Shown piece by piece: positions 45,884 to 54,887 of a stretch of DNA of 64,000 nucleotides. Within the stretch, counting starts at the first letter, position 1. Every line of letters starts with the position of its first letter. A program made the translations under genes and the position numbers. Under the pieces are notes generated by a model. That model was not told where the DNA came from, ran no database searches, and saw only the letters and a program-made list of their open reading frames with translations. Source of the stretch: Vulcanimicrobiota bacterium. GTDB taxonomy: Bacteria; Vulcanimicrobiota; Vulcanimicrobiia; Vulcanimicrobiales; Vulcanimicrobiaceae. Where the stretch lies: the NCBI GenBank assembly GCA_013036095.1, contig JAAXCW010000010.1, positions 1 to 64,000 of the forward strand, read 5' to 3'.

Positions 45884-47478
45884 CTTCGCAGCTCGATCCG
45901 ATTACCGTCGAAGTGATCAAGAACTCGCTGATCTATGCGAGCGAAGAGATGGGCGTCGCCCTGCGCAACAGCGCTTACTCTCCCAATATCAAGGAACGGC
46001 TCGACCACTCGTGCGCCCTCTTCGATCGCGACGCGCGGCTGATCGCGCAGGCCGAGCACATTCCCGTTCACTTGGGTTCGCTTCCCTGGGGATTGCTCCG
46101 CACCGTCGAGATCATCGTGCGCGACACGGGCGCGCCGGAAGAGGGCGAGATGTGGGTCGTCAACGATCCCTATATTTCCGGAACGCACCTCAACGACGTC
46201 ACCGTTATCCGTCCTATCTTTTTCCGCGGCGCACTCGCCGGATATGCCGCCAATAAAGCGCACCATACCGATGTGGGCGGAATGGTTCCGGGATCGATGT
46301 CCGCCGGCGCGCCCGATCTCTTTGCGGAAGGCCTGGTCGTCCCGCCAATGCGGCTGGTCGTGCACGACCGTAACGTCGCCGCGACGATCGCCCTGTTCCG
46401 CGCAAACTCGCGCACGCCCGACGCGCGGAGCGGCGATCTTCGGGCACAGACCGCCGGCAACTACACGGGCGAACGGCGTTTTCAGGAGCTCTGCGAACGG
46501 TACGGCATCGAGACGCTGCGCGCGGCGATCGACAAGGTTCTCGACCAAAGTGAAATGCGCATGCGTTCCGCGCTCGGCCGCATGCGCCAAGGAACGTTCG
46601 AGAGCGAAGACGTCTTGGAGGATCTCGACGGCAGCCCTTCGATCCGCATCGCTCTGCGTCTCACGCTGAAAAACGGGAGCGCGCACTTCGATTACGGCGG
46701 CACTGCGCCGCAGCTGCCGTTTCCAATGAATGCCGTCTACGGCGTAACACTCTCGGGCGTTTACTACGCGCTGCGTGCCGTTACCGATGCCGCAATTCCG
46801 ATGAACGAGGGATGTTTCCGCCCGGTTTCCGTCGACGTTCCGGAAGGCTCGCTCCTCAATCCCCGGCGGCCCGCCGCGGTGGGCGGCGGCAACGTGGAGA
46901 CGAGTACGCGCAATGCGGACGTCGTGCTCGGCGCGCTCGCGCAAGCCGCGCCCGACCGCGTTCCGGCGCAAAGCGGCGGAACGATGACCAACGTCATGAT
47001 CGGTGGGACGCGCGCCGACGGCACGCCGTGGGCTTTCTACGAGACGAACGGATGCGGGATGGGCGCGCGTCCCGGCATGAACGGGATTGACGCAATTCAG
47101 TGTCACATGACGAACACGCTAAACACGCCTATCGAAGCGATCGAGCGCGATTACCCGCTGCGTGTTACGCGGTATGAAATCGTTGAGGGTACGGGCGGAG
47201 ACGGACGTTTCAAAGGCGGGAACGGACTCGTTCGCGCGCTCCGGCTCACCCAGGGCAGTGCGCGCGTTTCACTGCTCTCCGAACGGCATACGGTCGAACC
47301 GCGCGGAACCGGCGGCGGAAAGAACGGCGCATGCGGGCGGCACACCCTCGTGCATGCCGACGGAACGGAAGAATCGCTTCCTGCAAAGACGACGTTTGAA
47401 TTCGAAGCGGAAGAGATGCTGGAAGTGCAGACGCCGGGTGGGGGCGGTTTAGGGAACGTGACCTCCGCAAAGCGGTAG
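45880..47478 (+). CDS. hyuB: Hydantoinase/oxoprolinase family, subunit B
   Basis: A 532-residue partner of HyuA. Hallmarks: DPITVEVIKNSLIYASEEMG, FDRDARLIAQAEHIPVHLGS, WVVNDPYISGTHLNDVTVI and the end block ELVEGTGGDGRFKGGNGLVR-like (VEGTGGDGRFKGGNGLVRAL). The GTG at 45880 overlaps the hyuA stop; the upstream open frame is inside hyuA. The 3' end overlaps the convergent secreted-protein gene by 30 bases. Substrate is unknown. Confidence 0.93.
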   Translation: MTSQLDPITVEVIKNSLIYASEEMGVALRNSAYSPNIKERLDHSCALFDRDARLIAQAEHIPVHLGSLPWGLLRTVEIIVRDTGAPEEGEMWVVNDPYISGTHLNDVTVIRPIFFRGALAGYAANKAHHTDVGGMVPGSMSAGAPDLFAEGLVVPPMRLVVHDRNVAATIALFRANSRTPDARSGDLRAQTAGNYTGERRFQELCERYGIETLRAAIDKVLDQSEMRMRSALGRMRQGTFESEDVLEDLDGSPSIRIALRLTLKNGSAHFDYGGTAPQLPFPMNAVYGVTLSGVYYALRAVTDAAIPMNEGCFRPVSVDVPEGSLLNPRRPAAVGGGNVETSTRNADVVLGALAQAAPDRVPAQSGGTMTNVMIGGTRADGTPWAFYETNGCGMGARPGMNGIDAIQCHMTNTLNTPIEAIERDYPLRVTRYEIVEGTGGDGRFKGGNGLVRALRLTQGSARVSLLSERHTVEPRGTGGGKNGACGRHTLVHADGTEESLPAKTTFEFEAEEMLEVQTPGGGGLGNVTSAKR

Positions 47479-48231
47479 CGCCTTCACGACCAAATCCGCG
47501 GCGTGACCTTCGCTCGATTGCAGCATCTGCTGATATTGCCCTATCGCGTTATCGAAAACGTCGAGCGGGTTATGTCCTATGACCATCCCCGTCTCTTGCA
47601 GCGCCGGATCTGCCGCTTGCTGCGGCGTATTGCGGACGCCGGCATTGAGAATCTCCGACGGCGGCGGTGTCGGCGCGGCGCCCACAGATTGCGCGCTCTG
47701 GGGACCGGTTCCACCTTGAGCCTTGGGAATTTCGCGCGTCTGCGTGAGTTTGAGCGCTTCGCTGCCTGCCGCTTGCATCTGACCGAGCTGCTCGGTATCT
47801 ACGAAACCGCTGATGACATCGAGCGCGCGCTTCTGTTGCTGCACGACCTGTTGCAAATACGCGCGTATTTCGAGGAGCTGCCGGTCTGAATCAGATATCG
47901 CGCGCCTGGGAAAGACGAAAGGATCGTTGAGCAACCTCTCGATCGCGGCGGTATTTTGAACGAGCGGCGTTATCAGGCGCTCGATGCGCGAGACCTGGAG
48001 ATCTTTTGAGATGCCGCTAGTAGCGGAGGCCTTCACATATCCGCGCAGCAACGGACGGCTTTGCGCGATCGTGTTGTCGTTTTGTAAAACCTTGCCGATT
48101 GCGGGACCGATGTTTTGCCGCAAGCCCGTGCAGAGCGGCGAAACGTGCAAGTGCTCAATCGTCTTGAGGGGCGTGGCAGCCGGTGCCGGAGCAGCGAGCG
48201 AGACCACCAATGCGAGCGTCGTCGTCCACAT
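47449..48231 (-). CDS. Secreted protein of unknown function
   Basis: The 260-residue product has a signal peptide (MWTTTLALVVSLAAPAPAAT). The mature part is mostly helical with two Cys near its ends (PLCTGL, PLCGGH) that could form a disulfide, and a Pro/Gln/Ala-rich middle (about residues 170-205). No family is recognised. It starts 24 bases after the DUF5916 gene and may be the last gene of the blaI cluster. Confidence 0.65.
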   Translation of the reverse strand: MWTTTLALVVSLAAPAPAATPLKTIEHLHVSPLCTGLRQNIGPAIGKVLQNDNTIAQSRPLLRGYVKASATSGISKDLQVSRIERLITPLVQNTAAIERLLNDPFVFPRRAISDSDRQLLEIRAYLQQVVQQQKRALDVISGFVDTEQLGQMQAAGSEALKLTQTREIPKAQGGTGPQSAQSVGAAPTPPPSEILNAGVRNTPQQAADPALQETGMVIGHNPLDVFDNAIGQYQQMLQSSEGHAADLVVKALPLCGGHVP

Positions 48232-48255
48232 GCCCCTTTTTACGCCGCGAGCGGC

Positions 48256-50322
48256 TTACGTTCCCTTATCCGCGCCGAAATAGTGCACGACTTTGAAGAT
48301 CAGCTGCGGTGAAGTGGAGAATGCGCTTGCATCTCCGTACACGAGGTATATCTCGTTGTGCTCCAGCAGCTTATGGTAGGCAAACGAAAGATTCCAGCCG
48401 CTGGAAAACGACGGCGTTTGCGCGAGATCGAGCACAGGCGAAAAGCCGATGATGCGGCGGACGCCCACCGCGAACGACTCGTTCAAACCGCTTTGGTATG
48501 AATAGCTCAGACGTTCTAGCCATTGGGTGTACGTTTTTCCGCTATCAAGGTGCTGGGCGGTGTCGTTGGCCTGAACCGTGACCGAGGCGCGGTTGCCGAC
48601 GCGGATGACGCTGCTGCGGGCCCATGACGCGATGCGTCCCGGCCCGAATCTGCCGCTGTCGTACTCGATGAACGTCGGATACGCCGTCGTGCTGCGCCAG
48701 CCAAAACCGCGCGAGTTTATCGTGATCGGCGCAAAAACGCCGTTGCCGAGCAGCAGGTATGACGAGCCCGTGTTGGCCCAGAGTTCTACGAAGTTCTTGG
48801 TGAGTAAGTCGAAACCGAGATTGTTGTCGGTCTGGTTGAGGGCGCCATTGGTTCCGTGATACCGGTCGATCGAACCGTAGACCTGGATCCACTTGAAGGC
48901 GCTTTTGCCCGAATAGTTCCACTGCTTCCAAAGATTGAGATTGTAGCCGGCGATTCCCGGATGCGAGACAATACCGTCAAAGGGATTGTAGTACGTCCCA
49001 ATCTTCCGGATGCTGAAGCCGGCGAAGAGATTCGGCGGCTCGTAGCCGATCCCGAAATCGGAGCGTTTGTTGTCGTTGTTGTCCAGTACCGCCGTGCCGC
49101 GGTCGTAGCCCCAATTATAGTAAGCGAACAAGTCCGAGTGGTTGTTGTAGGTGACGCCGTCTGTGACGGTGACATCGTTGAAGCCCGGCATGCTCACGGC
49201 GACGCGCTGCGTCGCGATCTGTACGCGACGGTTGGGCGTCTTGTAATAGAACGATTGCGCGTTGTCGTTACGGCCAACGCCGGCGGCGTCGAAACCAGCG
49301 AAATTGAAGCGCCCTTCTTTGCCTTCGATTGCATAGCCGTCTCGCGGCGTCGGGATGGCGGGCGTATAGAGCTCCTGTATTCCGGGACATCCCGTGCACG
49401 AGAATGGGTTATAAAAGTTCGCTCCCTGCGTGAAGAACGGCCGGACCTCGCTAAAGAACCGCCTGAACGCAGTCGGCGAGATGCTCTGCTGATCTTTTTC
49501 CACGTTGGAGTAGTCCGGGTGCAGCGTTGCGACAAACGTCGTGCTGGAATCCAGCGGGATCGAGAGGTCGGCGCCCGCGCGCGACGTGCTGCCGCCAATC
49601 GAGCGCGAAGCGAGGGAGCCCAGTCCGTACAGCGCGATGCGGCTCTTCGGACGCGTGCTTCCGACGGTCGGAATTCCGGCCAGGCGGCCGGCAAAGGTCA
49701 CATCGTTGAAGTTTGTGTCGCTGGCGGTTCCGCGCCAGACTAAATTTTCGCGCGTTGCCGGCGATAGCCGAATAAACTGTACGAGCCAAACCTTGCCGGC
49801 GCCGCGCATTCCGGAGAGCGGAATCTTCATCGTCACCGTGTAGCCGCCTGAGGTAATCTTTCCGGCCGACGTCCAATTTGGTTCGTATGAATTATTTTCG
49901 GTTGAAAACTGGTAATGCGTACCGATCGGGGTTGAGGTGAACTTGTACATAAAGCCTTGGTCGCCGCCCGGCCACAGATCAACCTGAACTTCGTCATCGG
50001 TGTCCATGCCGACACCGTTCGTGTGTTCTTGCGCACTGATGGGCGCCGTGGTTTTTACGTCGAACGCGACGTAGAGAAACTTGCCGTCCGTCAGAACGTA
50101 GGCGATTGTCGGCTGTTTCGCCGGCTGGTGGAAATTGACGTCGTAACCGAGGCTCGCCGTGGCAGCTTTTTGCCATAGCGGATCGCTCAGCGTGCCGTCC
50201 ATAGCGGGCGCCGACGTAACCACGGGAACCGTGAGCACGTCTTGTGCGGGTGCCGGTTCGATGGCGGAGGCCGTCCCGGATGCAAATGCGGCAAGGATCG
50301 CCGCGGCGAGCAACGCTTTCAT
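48256..50322 (-). CDS. Predicted outer-membrane barrel with CBM9-like domain (DUF5916 family)
   Basis: A 688-residue exported protein. It has a signal peptide (MKALLAAAILAAFASGTASA). Residues about 30-215 form a CBM9-like domain of the type found in DUF5916 proteins (PAMDGTLSDPLWQKA, DEVQVDLWPGG). The rest is a beta barrel with the family block FRRFFSEVRPFFTQGANFY. Such proteins sit in the outer membrane; function is not known. I chose the ATG at 50322, which gives the signal peptide and lies one base after the stop of the pentapeptide gene, so the two are coupled. Confidence 0.85.
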   Translation of the reverse strand: MKALLAAAILAAFASGTASAIEPAPAQDVLTVPVVTSAPAMDGTLSDPLWQKAATASLGYDVNFHQPAKQPTIAYVLTDGKFLYVAFDVKTTAPISAQEHTNGVGMDTDDEVQVDLWPGGDQGFMYKFTSTPIGTHYQFSTENNSYEPNWTSAGKITSGGYTVTMKIPLSGMRGAGKVWLVQFIRLSPATRENLVWRGTASDTNFNDVTFAGRLAGIPTVGSTRPKSRIALYGLGSLASRSIGGSTSRAGADLSIPLDSSTTFVATLHPDYSNVEKDQQSISPTAFRRFFSEVRPFFTQGANFYNPFSCTGCPGIQELYTPAIPTPRDGYAIEGKEGRFNFAGFDAAGVGRNDNAQSFYYKTPNRRVQIATQRVAVSMPGFNDVTVTDGVTYNNHSDLFAYYNWGYDRGTAVLDNNDNKRSDFGIGYEPPNLFAGFSIRKIGTYYNPFDGIVSHPGIAGYNLNLWKQWNYSGKSAFKWIQVYGSIDRYHGTNGALNQTDNNLGFDLLTKNFVELWANTGSSYLLLGNGVFAPITINSRGFGWRSTTAYPTFIEYDSGRFGPGRIASWARSSVIRVGNRASVTVQANDTAQHLDSGKTYTQWLERLSYSYQSGLNESFAVGVRRIIGFSPVLDLAQTPSFSSGWNLSFAYHKLLEHNEIYLVYGDASAFSTSPQLIFKVVHYFGADKGT

Positions 50323-50323
50323 G

Positions 50324-51154
50324 TCAGGGTCCTTTCGCACCGGTGAGGTTGGCGTGCGCGACATCGCGCAGCGTCGCCGCATCGAGCGGCGAACAGACGC
50401 GCTTGTCGTCATAGCCCGAACGGTCGCCCGGATCGCAAAGCAGCGCGCCGCGCAGATCGGCTCCGCGCAAATCGGCACCGCGCAGGTTCGTGCAAAAGAT
50501 CCGCGTACCGATTGTGTAGTTACCCTCGTTCCAATTCGTCTCGTGTCCGCAGAGCGCGGCCCCGTTCAAGTCCGCGTTTTGAAGATTCACGCGCGAAAAG
50601 TTGTCAGCCAGCAACGAGGCTCCGCGTAAACTCGCGCCGCTTAGGTTCGAATCCGAAAAATTGCTGCCCGCCGAATGGATGCCTTGCAGATTCTTGCCAT
50701 GCAGGTCTATGTGGCTCAGATTGCATCCTGCGCAATTCGAAAGGAGCGCGTGGACTTGCGCATCCGGTAGTCCGTTCAAAAAACTGCCGGAGAGATTGAC
50801 CCCCGCGAGTTTGATTCCGCCCAGACGCGCGCCGTCGAGTTTGGCGCCGCGAAGGTCGCAGCCGGCCAACTTTGCGCCCCGGAGATCCGCCCCGCGCAAA
50901 TCGGCACCACGAAAATCGACACCGGCCAACTCCGCGCCTGAGAAATTCGTGTTTTGCAGGTTAACGCCGCTCAGATCCACACCCACCCACGAAACTTCGC
51001 GCAGGTCGCGTCCGTGGAGGTCGTTGCCGCGCAAGTCGCACCCAACGCACGAGTGAGGAATTCCCAGCTGCGCGCGCGCAGCGCTCGCGCTGCCGGCGAT
51101 CAGCGAGCCCGCGATAGCGGCCGCGCCAAGGAGCGTAGCAAGTCGTCTCTTCAT
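50324..51154 (-). CDS. Secreted pentapeptide-repeat protein
   Basis: A 276-residue protein with a signal peptide (LATLLGAAAIAGSLIAGSAS) followed by many A(D/N)LxG pentapeptides that fold as a right-handed quadrilateral helix. Cys pairs recur: SCVGCDLRG, NCAGCNLSH. The same pairs, with the same linker type (AQ-x4-LL-x-NCxGC), occur in the sensor part of the BlaR1-like protein encoded upstream. The ATG at 51154 has GGAGAGAG before it. It may be the ligand, the target or a shield for that sensor; this is inference. Confidence 0.85.
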   Translation of the reverse strand: MKRRLATLLGAAAIAGSLIAGSASAARAQLGIPHSCVGCDLRGNDLHGRDLREVSWVGVDLSGVNLQNTNFSGAELAGVDFRGADLRGADLRGAKLAGCDLRGAKLDGARLGGIKLAGVNLSGSFLNGLPDAQVHALLSNCAGCNLSHIDLHGKNLQGIHSAGSNFSDSNLSGASLRGASLLADNFSRVNLQNADLNGAALCGHETNWNEGNYTIGTRIFCTNLRGADLRGADLRGALLCDPGDRSGYDDKRVCSPLDAATLRDVAHANLTGAKGP

Positions 51155-51229
51155 ATTCTCTCTCCGAAAAACTCCGCAAGAAACCAAGCCTGCACGCGCA
51201 GGCGCTTAAATCGGCCGGGTTGCCGGGTC

Positions 51230-53314
51230 CTACCTCATGATGTTGATTTTGCTGCCCGTGATTTGGGTGTGACTCAAGTCCACGTTACGCAGATCGACGC
51301 CCGTGAAATCACAACCGTTGAACGACGTTCCCTCGAGATGCGCACCGTCGAATTTGGCGTTCTTGAAATCGATGCCGTTGAACGAGGCGTTGCGCATGTC
51401 GGCACCGCGCAAGTCCGCCGAACTGAAGTCGTCTCCCGAGGCGGAGATGCCGCGCAAATCTTGTCCCCGCAGGTTTGCGCCCCGGAAATCGCACCCTTGG
51501 CAGTTGGCGAGGATCGAACGAGCCTGCGACGGAGCCAGTTTAGATATCTCGATGTCGCAACCGTTGATGTGCGCGCCCGCAAAGTTCGCACCGGTCAAAT
51601 CGGCTCGCCGCATGTTGCAACCGTTCAGATTTGCGTATCCAAAGTTGACGTCGCGCAGGTTGGCGCCCGAAAAATCGACGCCGCTCAGATTAGCATACGA
51701 GAAATTCGCCCCGTGCAGATCCGCGTTGGAGAAATCCGACCCCGTCAGTGCGACGCGCGAGAGGTTGCGCCCGGCCCACTGTACCCCGCTGAAATCGCAG
51801 CCCGTGCAAGACCCGTTGAGGTCCGCGACGCGCTTGAGAGTCGATTTGTAACCGTACGGCACCTTGTAGCGCATAGCCGGAATATTCAGATCCATTCCCC
51901 GCACGTGCACGTTGATCGCCGGCACGTGAACGTCCGTCGCCGGCACATGTATCTTCATGGCCGAGACCTGCACGTCGACCATGCCGTCGTGGATCGTCGT
52001 GCGCTTGGAGATCGCCGTGTGTTTCTTTACGGCAGGAGCGGTGCGCGGTGCCGAAGTGGCGGCCGCCACGATCGCAGATGGGAACGCGGCCGGTCGCGCA
52101 GGCAGATACTTGTCGCGATAGACGACGGTCGTTTTGGCGGCGGCGGATTTCGCCGTCACCGGCGCATGCGTGGCCGTTTGTGAAGTGGCCGAAGCGGCGT
52201 GAGCTGCGAGCGCGCCGGCCGAAAGTGTGAACGCAAACGATGGAGCGACGTTTTGCGCGACAAAGAACGTCACGATCAGCGCCGCGGCGACCGCGCCGGC
52301 CGGGCCGAACGAAACGCTCGTGCGGACGTTGCGGCCTGCCCGAAGCAGCCTTTCCACGCGTACCGATAGCCCGCGGCGCGTAAGAAATACGCCCGGAGCC
52401 GCAAGTGCACGATGGGGCCACGCCGTGACTTCTGCCATCCGCGTGAGACAGGTGGCGTAAGGGCGAACGTCGCCGGTCTGGTGCAGCACCCAATCGTCGC
52501 ACGCGACTTCGCGTTCCACGTCGAGCTGTTGCGCCATGAAGAGGACGGCGGGATTGAAGAAAAAGATCGCTTGAATGATGCGCTGCAGTCCGTTGGTCCA
52601 GTCGTCGGCGCGGCGCAAATGCGCGAGTTCGTGCAGCGTGATTTGGTCGATCTCTTTTTCGGAGAGCGTTTCGAGCAGATGCTTTGGAATCAGCACCATA
52701 GCGTCGAAAAGACCGACTGCCACGGGAACTTCGATCTGCTCGGAGACGCACAGGCGCACGTCGCGCGTGCCCTTCTCCGCGCGTGTCCAGCGCGCCAGCT
52801 GTTCGCGGTAATCGAGCGAGAGCGGCAGCGCGTCGCGCTTGAGCGCCTCGAGCTTGAACAGATTGAAAGCCAACCGCATTAACAGGAAGAGCGATGCCGC
52901 GAGCCACACGGCGAAGATCGCCAAGGCCAACGCTTCGGGCAGCGCAAAGCGCAGGCGGCTCGGAAAAGCCGGCGCAAGTGCGGCGGGGCGTGATGCCGTG
53001 AGCGCAAGACCGGGCTTGTAGACGACGTGAGCGTTGCGCGCTATCGTCCTTTGGGATGCTACCGCCGCTTGATGGTGATACGCGGGCGCCCTCTGCACGC
53101 TAACCTGCGGGATGGCGGTGACGACCGGAACGACGAGTGCCGCGAGCAGCGCGACGCACCAAGCGGCGTATCGCGTCGTGGCGTTGATGTTCGGCAGATA
53201 GTTTAGCAGCGCCCAAACGGCGAGCGCGAGGATCGCCCCTTCCCATAAACTATTGAAGAGGGTTGCGACGGCGATGCGCGCGGCCGGTTCGGCAAGAGCA
53301 GCGAGCGCGTGCAT
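51230..53314 (-). CDS. BlaR1-like M56 metallopeptidase with pentapeptide-repeat sensor domain
   Basis: A 694-residue membrane protein. Spans lie near residues 12-40, 48-68, 128-152 and 335-360. The zinc-protease site is HELAH (228-232) with the distal acidic site VEREVACDDW (266-275), as in BlaR1/MecR1. After the last span comes a linker with three VHVPA-like repeats (about 450-485), then a pentapeptide-repeat domain (about 500-690) instead of the penicillin-binding domain. It starts with no gap after blaI. By analogy it would cleave or trigger cleavage of BlaI when its outside domain is engaged. Confidence 0.9.
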   Translation of the reverse strand: MHALAALAEPAARIAVATLFNSLWEGAILALAVWALLNYLPNINATTRYAAWCVALLAALVVPVVTAIPQVSVQRAPAYHHQAAVASQRTIARNAHVVYKPGLALTASRPAALAPAFPSRLRFALPEALALAIFAVWLAASLFLLMRLAFNLFKLEALKRDALPLSLDYREQLARWTRAEKGTRDVRLCVSEQIEVPVAVGLFDAMVLIPKHLLETLSEKEIDQITLHELAHLRRADDWTNGLQRIIQAIFFFNPAVLFMAQQLDVEREVACDDWVLHQTGDVRPYATCLTRMAEVTAWPHRALAAPGVFLTRRGLSVRVERLLRAGRNVRTSVSFGPAGAVAAALIVTFFVAQNVAPSFAFTLSAGALAAHAASATSQTATHAPVTAKSAAAKTTVVYRDKYLPARPAAFPSAIVAAATSAPRTAPAVKKHTAISKRTTIHDGMVDVQVSAMKIHVPATDVHVPAINVHVRGMDLNIPAMRYKVPYGYKSTLKRVADLNGSCTGCDFSGVQWAGRNLSRVALTGSDFSNADLHGANFSYANLSGVDFSGANLRDVNFGYANLNGCNMRRADLTGANFAGAHINGCDIEISKLAPSQARSILANCQGCDFRGANLRGQDLRGISASGDDFSSADLRGADMRNASFNGIDFKNAKFDGAHLEGTSFNGCDFTGVDLRNVDLSHTQITGSKINIMR

Positions 53315-53698
53315 TTACGGACCTTCCTCGTACTGTTCGATGAGCGTCTTGAGCCGTTGAAGTTCCGCTTCACCCGGGCGTTCGTTCTCGATCAGACGTA
53401 GCGCGAGCTCGGCGGATTTGTTTCCAAAGAAACGGTTGAGCAATAGGCCGACCGCGGATTGCGCCGCTTCTTCGCGCTCGACGAGCGGTGAATAGACGTA
53501 CGCGCGCCCCTCTTCTTCGTGGCTCACGTAGCCCTTTTGTTCGAGAATGCGCATCGTCGTCAGCACTGTGTTGTAGGCGATCGGCGGCGGCGGAAGCGCT
53601 TCGGTCACATCGGCGATGGTGGCGCTGCGCTTTTTCCACAGCACCTCCATGAGGCGCAACTCGGCCTCAGTCAGCGTCGGGGATTTCTTTCGAGCCAC
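53315..53698 (-). CDS. blaI: BlaI/MecI/CopY-family repressor
   Basis: A winged-helix repressor of about 127 residues. The DNA-binding part is PTLTEAELRLMEVLWKKRSA followed by AYNTVLTTMRILEQKGYVSH. The C-terminal helices form the dimer part and contain the region cut in BlaI homologs. I chose the GTG at 53698, which has GGAGG five bases before it; another in-frame GTG is at 53710. It is followed directly by the BlaR1-like gene and preceded by its likely operator. Confidence 0.9.
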   Translation of the reverse strand: MARKKSPTLTEAELRLMEVLWKKRSATIADVTEALPPPPIAYNTVLTTMRILEQKGYVSHEEEGRAYVYSPLVEREEAAQSAVGLLLNRFFGNKSAELALRLIENERPGEAELQRLKTLIEQYEEGP

Positions 53699-53725
53699 AG
53701 CAACCTCCACGTGCGATTCAGCGTC

Positions 53726-53743
53726 CTACTAATTCTTTAGTAG
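53726..53743. promoter_or_regulatory. BlaI-type operator
   Basis: CTACTAA-TTCT-TTAGTAG is a perfect dyad with 7-base arms. It directly follows the -10 of the blaI promoter, thus covering the start of transcription. The TACTA/TAGTA core is like the operators of BlaI and MecI. Autorepression is expected. Confidence 0.8.
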
Positions 53744-53772
53744 ACTATAAGCGGGCGGGCGCCGCTTGTCAA
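53744..53772 (-). promoter_or_regulatory. Promoter of the blaI cluster
   Basis: On the minus strand TTGACA (53772-53767) and TATAGT (53749-53744) are separated by 17 bases. It is a near-consensus sigma-70-type promoter driving blaI and the genes after it. Confidence 0.8.
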
Positions 53773-53864
53773 CTATAGAATTAATATACAGGCAAGGGTG
53801 GCGGGCCCCGTTCGGAGAGAGGACGAATAGCGCCGATTCGTTACCCCTATCCATGGAGACTCGA

Positions 53865-54887
53865 ATGCGGCGTCCCTTCGTCTTTCGCAGCGCCGGGTTA
53901 GTCCCGGCCGCCCTGGCCTTGTTGGCCTCAACTGCCTGCTCCGGCGGCACAGTGATCGGCAGTGGACCTTTGCCCACTCCCACACCGGTCGTGCCGCACG
54001 TTTCGGCGGAGTTCACGGTTCCCACGGCCGCCAGCTCGCCGCAGGGAATCACCCTGGGTTTCGACGGTTTCATCTACTTCGTGGAAACCGCGGGCAACAA
54101 GTTCGTCAAGATGACGACCGGCGGCGTCTTCGTTGAAACGGCGGTACCAACCGCGAACGCGGGCCCGTTCGGCATCGCCGGCATGCCCGACAGCAGCGTC
54201 TGGTACACCGAAAACACCGCCAATAAGATCGGCACCCAATCGGGCACGACCGCGAACGAGTATCCGCTGCCGACCGCAAACGCCGGGCCGACGTATATCA
54301 CGCGCGGACCGGACGGCGCGCTTTGGTTCAGCGAAACCAACGCCAACAAGCTTGGCCGCATCGACCTCAACGGCAACATTACTGAATTTCCCGTGCCCAC
54401 GGCAAACGCCGGGCTGGCGGGGCTCGTCGGTTACAGCGACGGTGGAATCTGGATTGCGGAAAGCAACGCTTCGGCGATCGTCCGCTTCGACGTCACAGCG
54501 AAGACGTTCGGCACCCCGCGTCCGACGCTGACGGCAAACGCCGCGCCTACGCAAATTGTCGTCTGCCCCGACGGTCAGACGCTGTGTTTCACCGAGAATA
54601 ATGCAGCCAAGCTTGGCCAGATCACGCCCGCGGGCGTCGTCACCGAACACTCGCTCGCACCGGCGACTTCAGCCTTCGGGTTGATTAACGGCGCCGACTT
54701 CAACCTCTACTTCACCGACCGCGCGCAGAACAAGGTCGGCCAGATTTCCGGCGTCTCATTCGCCGTCAGCGAGTTTGCGATCCCAACCGCCGGTTCGCAA
54801 GCTTCGTTCCTTTCGCTCGGACCGGACGCGCAGATCTACTTTACCGAAACCGCCGCGAACAAAGTCGGGCGGCTAACCTACTTCTAA
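53865..54887 (+). CDS. Vgb-like beta-propeller lipoprotein
   Basis: An exported protein of 340 residues with repeats of about 40-45 residues of the form ExxIPTAxAxPxxIxxGPDGxxWFTExxAxKIGRI, typical of the virginiamycin B lyase/NHL-type seven-bladed propeller (for example DGALWFSETNANKLGRIDL). The N-terminus has a signal peptide ending LLASTACSGG, a probable lipid-attachment Cys. ATG 53865 has GGAG seven bases before it; an earlier ATG at 53853 is in frame. Many such propellers have no lyase activity. The last four bases overlap the convergent fliO-like gene. Confidence 0.82.
   Translation: MRRPFVFRSAGLVPAALALLASTACSGGTVIGSGPLPTPTPVVPHVSAEFTVPTAASSPQGITLGFDGFIYFVETAGNKFVKMTTGGVFVETAVPTANAGPFGIAGMPDSSVWYTENTANKIGTQSGTTANEYPLPTANAGPTYITRGPDGALWFSETNANKLGRIDLNGNITEFPVPTANAGLAGLVGYSDGGIWIAESNASAIVRFDVTAKTFGTPRPTLTANAAPTQIVVCPDGQTLCFTENNAAKLGQITPAGVVTEHSLAPATSAFGLINGADFNLYFTDRAQNKVGQISGVSFAVSEFAIPTAGSQASFLSLGPDAQIYFTETAANKVGRLTYF

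Follow-up and report, generated by a model that had tools for sequence, protein, structure and literature searches.

What does a membrane protease of the BlaR1 type sense when a pentapeptide-repeat fold takes the place of its penicillin sensor? The question is raised by a minus-strand operon of five genes behind one promoter (47449-53710) in a stretch of 64,000 nucleotides, here called the window (contig JAAXCW010000010.1, positions 1 to 64,000; assembly GCA_013036095.1), from a soil bacterium of the little-known phylum Candidatus Eremiobacterota with a genome of 2.58 Mb. Its genes encode, in order, the repressor BlaI, an M56 metalloprotease fused to a pentapeptide-repeat protein (PRP) domain (P0001), a secreted PRP (P0002, the partner), a CBM9/DUF5916 protein (P0004) and a small protein, P5. 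Many bacteria have BlaI/M56 pairs, which are not confined to antibiotic resistance, and to our knowledge the cues that they sense outside beta-lactam systems are largely unknown. The sequence supports the gene content, the protease motif, the predicted topology, a promoter with two operators, matched folds and an old co-inheritance of sensor and partner. We judge it reasonably probable that the operon is an autoregulated envelope circuit of a diderm, working by regulated proteolysis in the manner of BlaI/BlaR1, and that its sensor and secreted partner bind a common ligand or recognise one another.

A pentapeptide-repeat sensor and its secreted look-alike

All the genes named in an earlier note on this DNA (BlaI, BlaR1-like M56 protein, PRP sensor, secreted PRP, DUF5916 protein and secreted protein) are present, as seen with Pfam and in the sequence. 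That note placed the system at 50324-53743; the genes there are real, but the operon extends further, to 47449 (Table 1). The Pfam matches are BlaI, M56, Pentapeptide, DUF5916 and CBM9_1, and consecutive genes are spaced by 0, 75, 1 and 24 bp, the gene of the BlaI-family winged-helix repressor adjoining that of the M56 protease. Residues 135-287 of the M56 protein align with the BlaR1 cryo-electron microscopy chains 8EXP/8EXS, and E269 (in EREVACD) falls opposite the Glu in the NEVEAD of BlaR1, the third Glu ligand. Hydropathy places three helices (residues ~19-37, ~50-68 and ~128-146) ahead of the protease domain and one (~334-356) behind it; by analogy with BlaR1, the PRP domain probably lies outside the inner membrane. 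The V-H-V-P-A-x-x repeat linker that precedes it also occurs in several relatives and is expanded in locus L051 and in genus g19.

None of the five operon proteins showed a penicillin-binding or transpeptidase domain in searches with Pfam and NCBIfam. The blaR1_generic equivalog model gave 89 of 400 bits, and the C-terminal domain is a PRP, not a class-D-like sensor. Pfam Pentapeptide matches, AlphaFold2 and the missing penicillin-binding domain thus agree with the earlier claim that a PRP domain stands in place of the penicillin sensor. As judged from the sequence, the system resembles BlaR1 in how it works; it does not count as a beta-lactam sensor, because the defining domain was tested for and not found.

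Structure prediction of both repeat domains, which the earlier note had proposed, gave the same two-stack layout in residues 499-694 of the sensor, the only part of the M56 protein with a predicted local distance difference test (pLDDT) of ~70-92, and in the partner. The AlphaFold2 model of P0002, made with four orthologues, has two stacks of pentapeptide coils split by a helix (mean pLDDT 79.7). Its A(D/N)LXX repeats and quadrilateral beta-helix, seen with Pfam, AlphaFold2 and structure comparison, are those of a PRP; it superposes on NP275 with a root-mean-square deviation of 1.1 Å over 84 columns, and its hydrophobic N-terminus is that of a secretion signal. Sensor and partner each carry two CxGC pairs, as the earlier note had said, and in both proteins one pair opens each predicted stack. 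The AQ-x4-LL motif is likewise present in both; what had been called a turn is instead a predicted alpha-helix splitting the beta-helix (residues 595-604 of the sensor and 131-139 of the partner).

The CxGC pairs are spaced 102-103 residues apart in 46 of 55 sensors of the phylum, and two pairs with a spacing of 100-106 are present in 26 of the 37 adjacent partners. Four PRPs of this genome have the motif: two stand-alone secreted ones, nearly identical to each other, besides the sensor and the partner. It was not found in the remaining PRP-containing genes. The motif is therefore the mark of a PRP subtype, and the possibility raised beforehand, that such pairs are common to all PRPs, did not materialise. 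The two stand-alone genes, each with a double CxGC motif, lie at 874-1767 in both L083 (G000:C2) and L084 (G000:C12); their flanks are similar, including a membrane protein starting MKRRRxRPTYRHSLVTR, and form a duplicated block. PRP repeats free of Cys pairs form the N-terminal part of long exported barrel-like proteins (G000:C5:120826, C2:236417-238136 and C6:51797; L077, L079 and L081), of which the C6 protein resembles an outer-membrane assembly protein. A 71-residue stretch with the Cys motif, used as query, had no plasmid match.

Pairing across the phylum

We searched 149 genomes of the phylum with P0001, and 83 matched at E<=1e-20, many via the M56 part only. About 100 M56 loci were collected and classified, with sensor classes (PRP and a 22-residue repeat, R22) assigned by explicit class models; 55 had PRP sensors, 54 of them with readable downstream sequence. 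A PRP was the next gene after the M56-PRP fusion at 37 of these 54 loci, in 19 genera and two families, and inspection revealed at least two further loci with an adjacent PRP (L042 and L167). Behind other M56 proteins a PRP was the next gene in 0 of 46 cases. The earlier note had suggested looking for M56-PRP fusions beside secreted PRP genes, and had named scattering of the genes in relatives as an outcome that would speak against it; the 37 loci in Eremiobacterota answer the former, and pairing in at least 19 genera shows that the genes stay together. The loci fall into two subtypes, that of the window, usually with DUF5916 and often with P5, and a second without DUF5916. Extra PRP genes lie downstream at some loci (L055, L153 and L167).

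In a maximum-likelihood tree built from 74 PRP domains with two Cys pairs, sensors and partners fell into separate groups, with 3 label changes against a minimum of 2 and 23 expected by shuffling. Sensor and partner distances were correlated (r=0.90, and 0.60 with the M56 distance removed). These separate parallel lineages and correlated distances argue, at the level of sequence, that the pairing is old and co-inherited. Recent tandem duplication was rejected, as the tree groups sensors with sensors and partners with partners; the duplication put forward earlier is old, not recent.

The same arrangement was seen with sensors of another kind. Other M56 proteins of the phylum carry HEAT-type repeats, short tails or the helical repeat R22 (GYTNLSVDDLIRLRDHGV...), which has no Pfam or NCBIfam family. 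Behind M56 proteins with R22 sensors the next gene encoded a signal-peptide protein with R22 repeats in 15 of 17 cases (9 genera), often with a 4-bp overlap at the M56 stop codon, and behind non-R22 M56 proteins in 0 of 83. Cross-fold comparison gave no match in either direction, PRP sensor with non-PRP neighbour or non-PRP sensor with PRP neighbour (0 of 2585 each). The matching rule holds for an unrelated repeat type, which is new here. This genome itself holds one circuit of each type, PRP and R22, and DUF5916 belongs to both; the R22 circuit (G000:C8, L076; 10059-13266 and 7962-10052) comprises BlaI, an M56 protein with an R22 sensor, a secreted R22 protein and DUF5916, with an operator-like site CACCTAAATCCTTAGGTG (CACCTAA-N4-TTAGGTG). 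Plasmid searches found neither an M56-PRP fusion nor an R22 relative. A single third match was seen in L163 (5922-7521), where an M56 protein with a TonB-C-like tail, a label that is our reading of the sequence, adjoins a small secreted TonB-C-like protein.

These pairs raise the prospect of a general design, in which an M56/BlaI switch with a swappable extracytoplasmic sensor is paired to a secreted free copy of the sensor's fold from the same operon, so that a shared ligand or mutual reading would generalise the BlaR1/beta-lactamase logic to non-antibiotic envelope signals; we regard this wider proposal as evenly poised. That a sensor is mirrored by the secreted product of the gene beside it is a rule readable from genomes, and it would give a handle on the ligand and output of orphan M56 systems.

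Promoter, proposed circuit and rival readings

The near-consensus promoter and dyad operator reported earlier were both found, as TTGACA-N17-TATAGT and the perfect dyad CTACTAAAGAATTAGTAG (O2), but there are two putative operators, not one, the second (O1, ATATTAATTCTATAGTTG) being degenerate and lying across the -35 box. Throughout the phylum two BlaI-type operator sites flank a near-consensus promoter. Among the scanned loci, O1-type sites begin exactly 15 bp ahead of the -35 box in 56 cases, and O2 sites lie 0-1 bp past the -10 box in 44. Core operator sites upstream of fusion-linked BlaI numbered 1.36 per 310 bp against 0.036 expected, an enrichment of ~38-fold. The exact O2 dyad occurs once in the 2.58-Mb genome, and with <=2 mismatches it has one other genomic site against 3 for reversed-pattern controls; since the exact dyad is unique, the regulon is probably this operon alone. 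The BlaI open reading frame (ORF) reaches a GTG at 53710, but the start is very probably the GTG at 53698, because relatives (e.g., L034 and L036) begin M/VARKKSPTL and GGAGG lies upstream. Relatives of BlaI with solved structures are BlaI (1P6R) and MecI (1OKR).

Downstream of the partner gene, P0004 had Pfam E-values of 1.2e-6 for DUF5916 and 6.7e-6 for CBM9_1, and most loci of the subtype seen in the window have a DUF5916 gene downstream of BlaI and M56. P5 has no family match in Pfam or NCBIfam; its homologues are found in many relatives with position conserved, and here its gene overlaps a convergent plus-strand ORF. A divergent gene upstream of the operon (53766-54887, plus strand) encodes a secreted protein with NHL/Vgb-type repeats (LGFDGFIYFVETAGNKF...).

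Table 1. Coordinates in the window of the operon's genes, protein features and promoter elements (aa, amino acids; TM4, fourth transmembrane helix).
Feature	Position	Strand	Description and basis
BlaI/MecI/CopY-family repressor	53315..53698	-	127 aa; Penicillinase_R E=1.1e-30
M56 (BlaR1-type) membrane metalloprotease fused to PRP sensor (P0001)	51230..53314	-	694 aa; Pfam M56 E=4e-36 and Pentapeptide E=4e-43
HELAH zinc-binding motif (HExxH)	52619..52633	-	residues 228-232
Repetitive V-H-V-P-A type linker, TM4 to sensor	51869..51979	-	residues 446-482; sequence
PRP sensor domain	51233..51820	-	residues 499-694: 5 coils, helix 595-604, 4 coils; AlphaFold2
Sensor Cys pair 1, C503-T-G-C506 (SCTGCDF)	51797..51808	-	
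Sensor Cys pair 2, C605-Q-G-C608 (NCQGCDF)	51491..51502	-	
Secreted two-stack PRP, partner (P0002)	50324..51154	-	276 aa; Sec-type signal peptide; Pentapeptide E=6.5e-38
Partner Cys pair 1, C36-V-G-C39 (SCVGCDL)	51038..51049	-	
Partner Cys pair 2, C141-A-G-C144 (NCAGCNL)	50723..50734	-	
DUF5916/CBM9 protein (P0004)	48256..50322	-	688 aa; signal peptide, CBM9-like and DUF5916 (outer-membrane beta-barrel type) regions; Pfam
P5	47449..48231	-	small protein, predicted secreted, 260 aa; last gene of the operon
-35 box TTGACA	53767..53772	-	sequence
-10 box TATAGT	53744..53749	-	17-bp spacer from -35; sequence
Putative operator O2, perfect dyad	53726..53743	-	immediately after -10 box
Putative operator O1	53770..53787	-	degenerate here; overlaps -35 box

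Homology and the operators make an autoregulated BlaI/M56 switch likely. As in the family, BlaI bound to O1 and O2 would shut the operon; an envelope cue perceived by the PRP sensor outside the inner membrane would be relayed via TM4 to the cytosolic M56 protease, which would inactivate BlaI, presumably by cleavage. Derepression would then supply more sensor, along with the secreted PRP, P5 and the outer-membrane-type protein with DUF5916. Most likely the secreted PRP binds the ligand or surface that the sensor binds, or the sensor itself, and it would be effector and feedback together, as beta-lactamase is for the penicillin-binding BlaR1 sensor. In the bla system, sensor and beta-lactamase both bind penicillin, and the matched pairs suggest the same logic with a different ligand. 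A shared ligand, feedback and an outer-membrane site of action are the weaker, more conjectural parts of this proposal; hetero-assembly or competition, which the earlier note also raised, may likewise apply. The 19 genera, the operators and the matched folds are in keeping with what that note envisaged, a BlaI/BlaR1-type circuit in which a PRP sensor has a look-alike secreted partner, and with its conservation.

Several points weigh against the proposed circuit. About 15 of the 54 fusions have no neighbouring PRP, and the partner is therefore not obligatory or is encoded elsewhere; HEAT-type and other M56 sensors were without a matched neighbour. The loci come from related genomes and are not independent; genus counts are safer, and the Fisher p-values (2e-14 and 5e-16) ignore kinship. 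The partner of a given locus is not specifically closer to its own sensor than are the partners from elsewhere (ranks 1-19 of 24), and locus-specific pairing via overall similarity was rejected because the own partner is not top-ranked. The M56 half was modelled poorly (full-length AlphaFold2, pLDDT ~25-45), so the signal path rests on homology; no BlaI cleavage site was identified, and the circuit is known here from sequences and predicted structures.

Genus g19 (L129, L130, L133 and L134) has a one-stack sensor and no separate PRP gene, with DUF5916 directly next, the partner and the second stack being missing together. Loss of the Cys pair in this genus was considered and rejected, the one-stack sensor having a C-x3-C variant.

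The matched folds and co-inheritance would also fit a possible, though doubtful, reading in which the secreted PRP, like YjbI, would stand sentinel at the outer membrane and directly hold the sensor PRP in a hetero-beta-helix; envelope damage would remove the partner and fire the protease, and the ligand would be the partner itself. PRPs such as MfpA do dimerise (6ZT5 homodimer), and in Caulobacter zinc stress leads to proteolysis of YjbI, and the signalling activated in this way restores the YjbI supply (PMC12864828). However, some fusion loci lack a partner, the Caulobacter sensors are two-component kinases rather than PRPs, and the YjbI Cys residues are not needed for its zinc-induced turnover (PMC12864828). 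It is unlikely that PRP sensor and partner are merely structural two-stack spacers or envelope anchors, in an operon that just couples envelope proteins to an M56 switch, with the signal sensed by the membrane part of that switch: M56 tails are interchangeable in the phylum (PRP, R22 and HEAT), some are very short, and DUF5916 lies downstream of PRP and R22 types alike, but neutral spacers would not be expected to match their neighbours fold by fold, and the spacing of the Cys pairs is near constant. We find it hard to credit that the secreted gene arose incidentally from local duplication of a domain and has nothing to do with sensing. Tandem repeats readily duplicate, and the further PRP genes downstream in L055, L153 and L167 would fit, yet sensor and partner belong to separate lineages and come each with a signal peptide or anchor of its own; their old pairing persists across genera, and the same kind of pairing is seen with R22 repeats. 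We give almost no credence to the idea that the circuit truly responds to beta-lactams through a degenerate sensor, which BlaI/BlaR1 homology alone would favour; the equivalog score and the domain searches above speak against it, and beta-lactam sensing was rejected for want of a penicillin-binding domain.

Comparison with known systems

In the open-access papers that we searched, with subscription papers not among them, we found neither BlaR1/M56 proteins with PRP sensors nor the matching rule; this is not proof of novelty, and paired Cys residues in a secreted PRP have already been described, in YjbI (PMC12864828). The circuit proposed here resembles BlaI/BlaR1 and MecI/MecR1 of Staphylococcus and Bacillus in its repressor and M56 HExxH protease, its helices flanking a cytosolic protease domain, its C-terminal extracytoplasmic sensor, its promoter operators and an output tied to the sensor by ligand class. 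It differs in that its sensor is a PRP solenoid, whereas theirs is a class-D beta-lactamase-like domain, and in that, in a diderm host, it makes a secreted PRP together with an outer-membrane-type protein as output. The second M56 system of this genome differs from that of the window in its R22 helical sensor and its CACCTAA-N4-TTAGGTG site.

YjbI of Caulobacter crescentus is a secreted PRP with paired Cys at both ends of its beta-helix and a charged C-terminal tail with functional lysines; it silences envelope-stress signalling, is replenished by that signalling, and acts on the two-component systems UzcSR and ChvGI, M56/BlaR being unmentioned (PMC12864828). Compared by description, not alignment, P0002 is like YjbI in its predicted secreted PRP beta-helix and its proposed link to envelope signalling and feedback. 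Each protein has two Cys pairs, but the pairs of P0002 each open one of two stacks and those of YjbI flank the beta-helix. P0002 ends in ...RDVAHANLTGAKGP, with no lysine cluster or charged tail of the YjbI type. Secreted PRPs, recently tied to outer-membrane control in Caulobacter, would be placed within a testable one-operon circuit. With Qnr, MfpA, HetL and NP275, P0002 shares the quadrilateral beta-helix fold. The Qnr model gave it 56 of 240 bits, below the curated cut-off, and unlike Qnr and MfpA, which are cytosolic and act on gyrase, P0002 is predicted to be secreted and has two stacks split by a helix and CxGC pairs.

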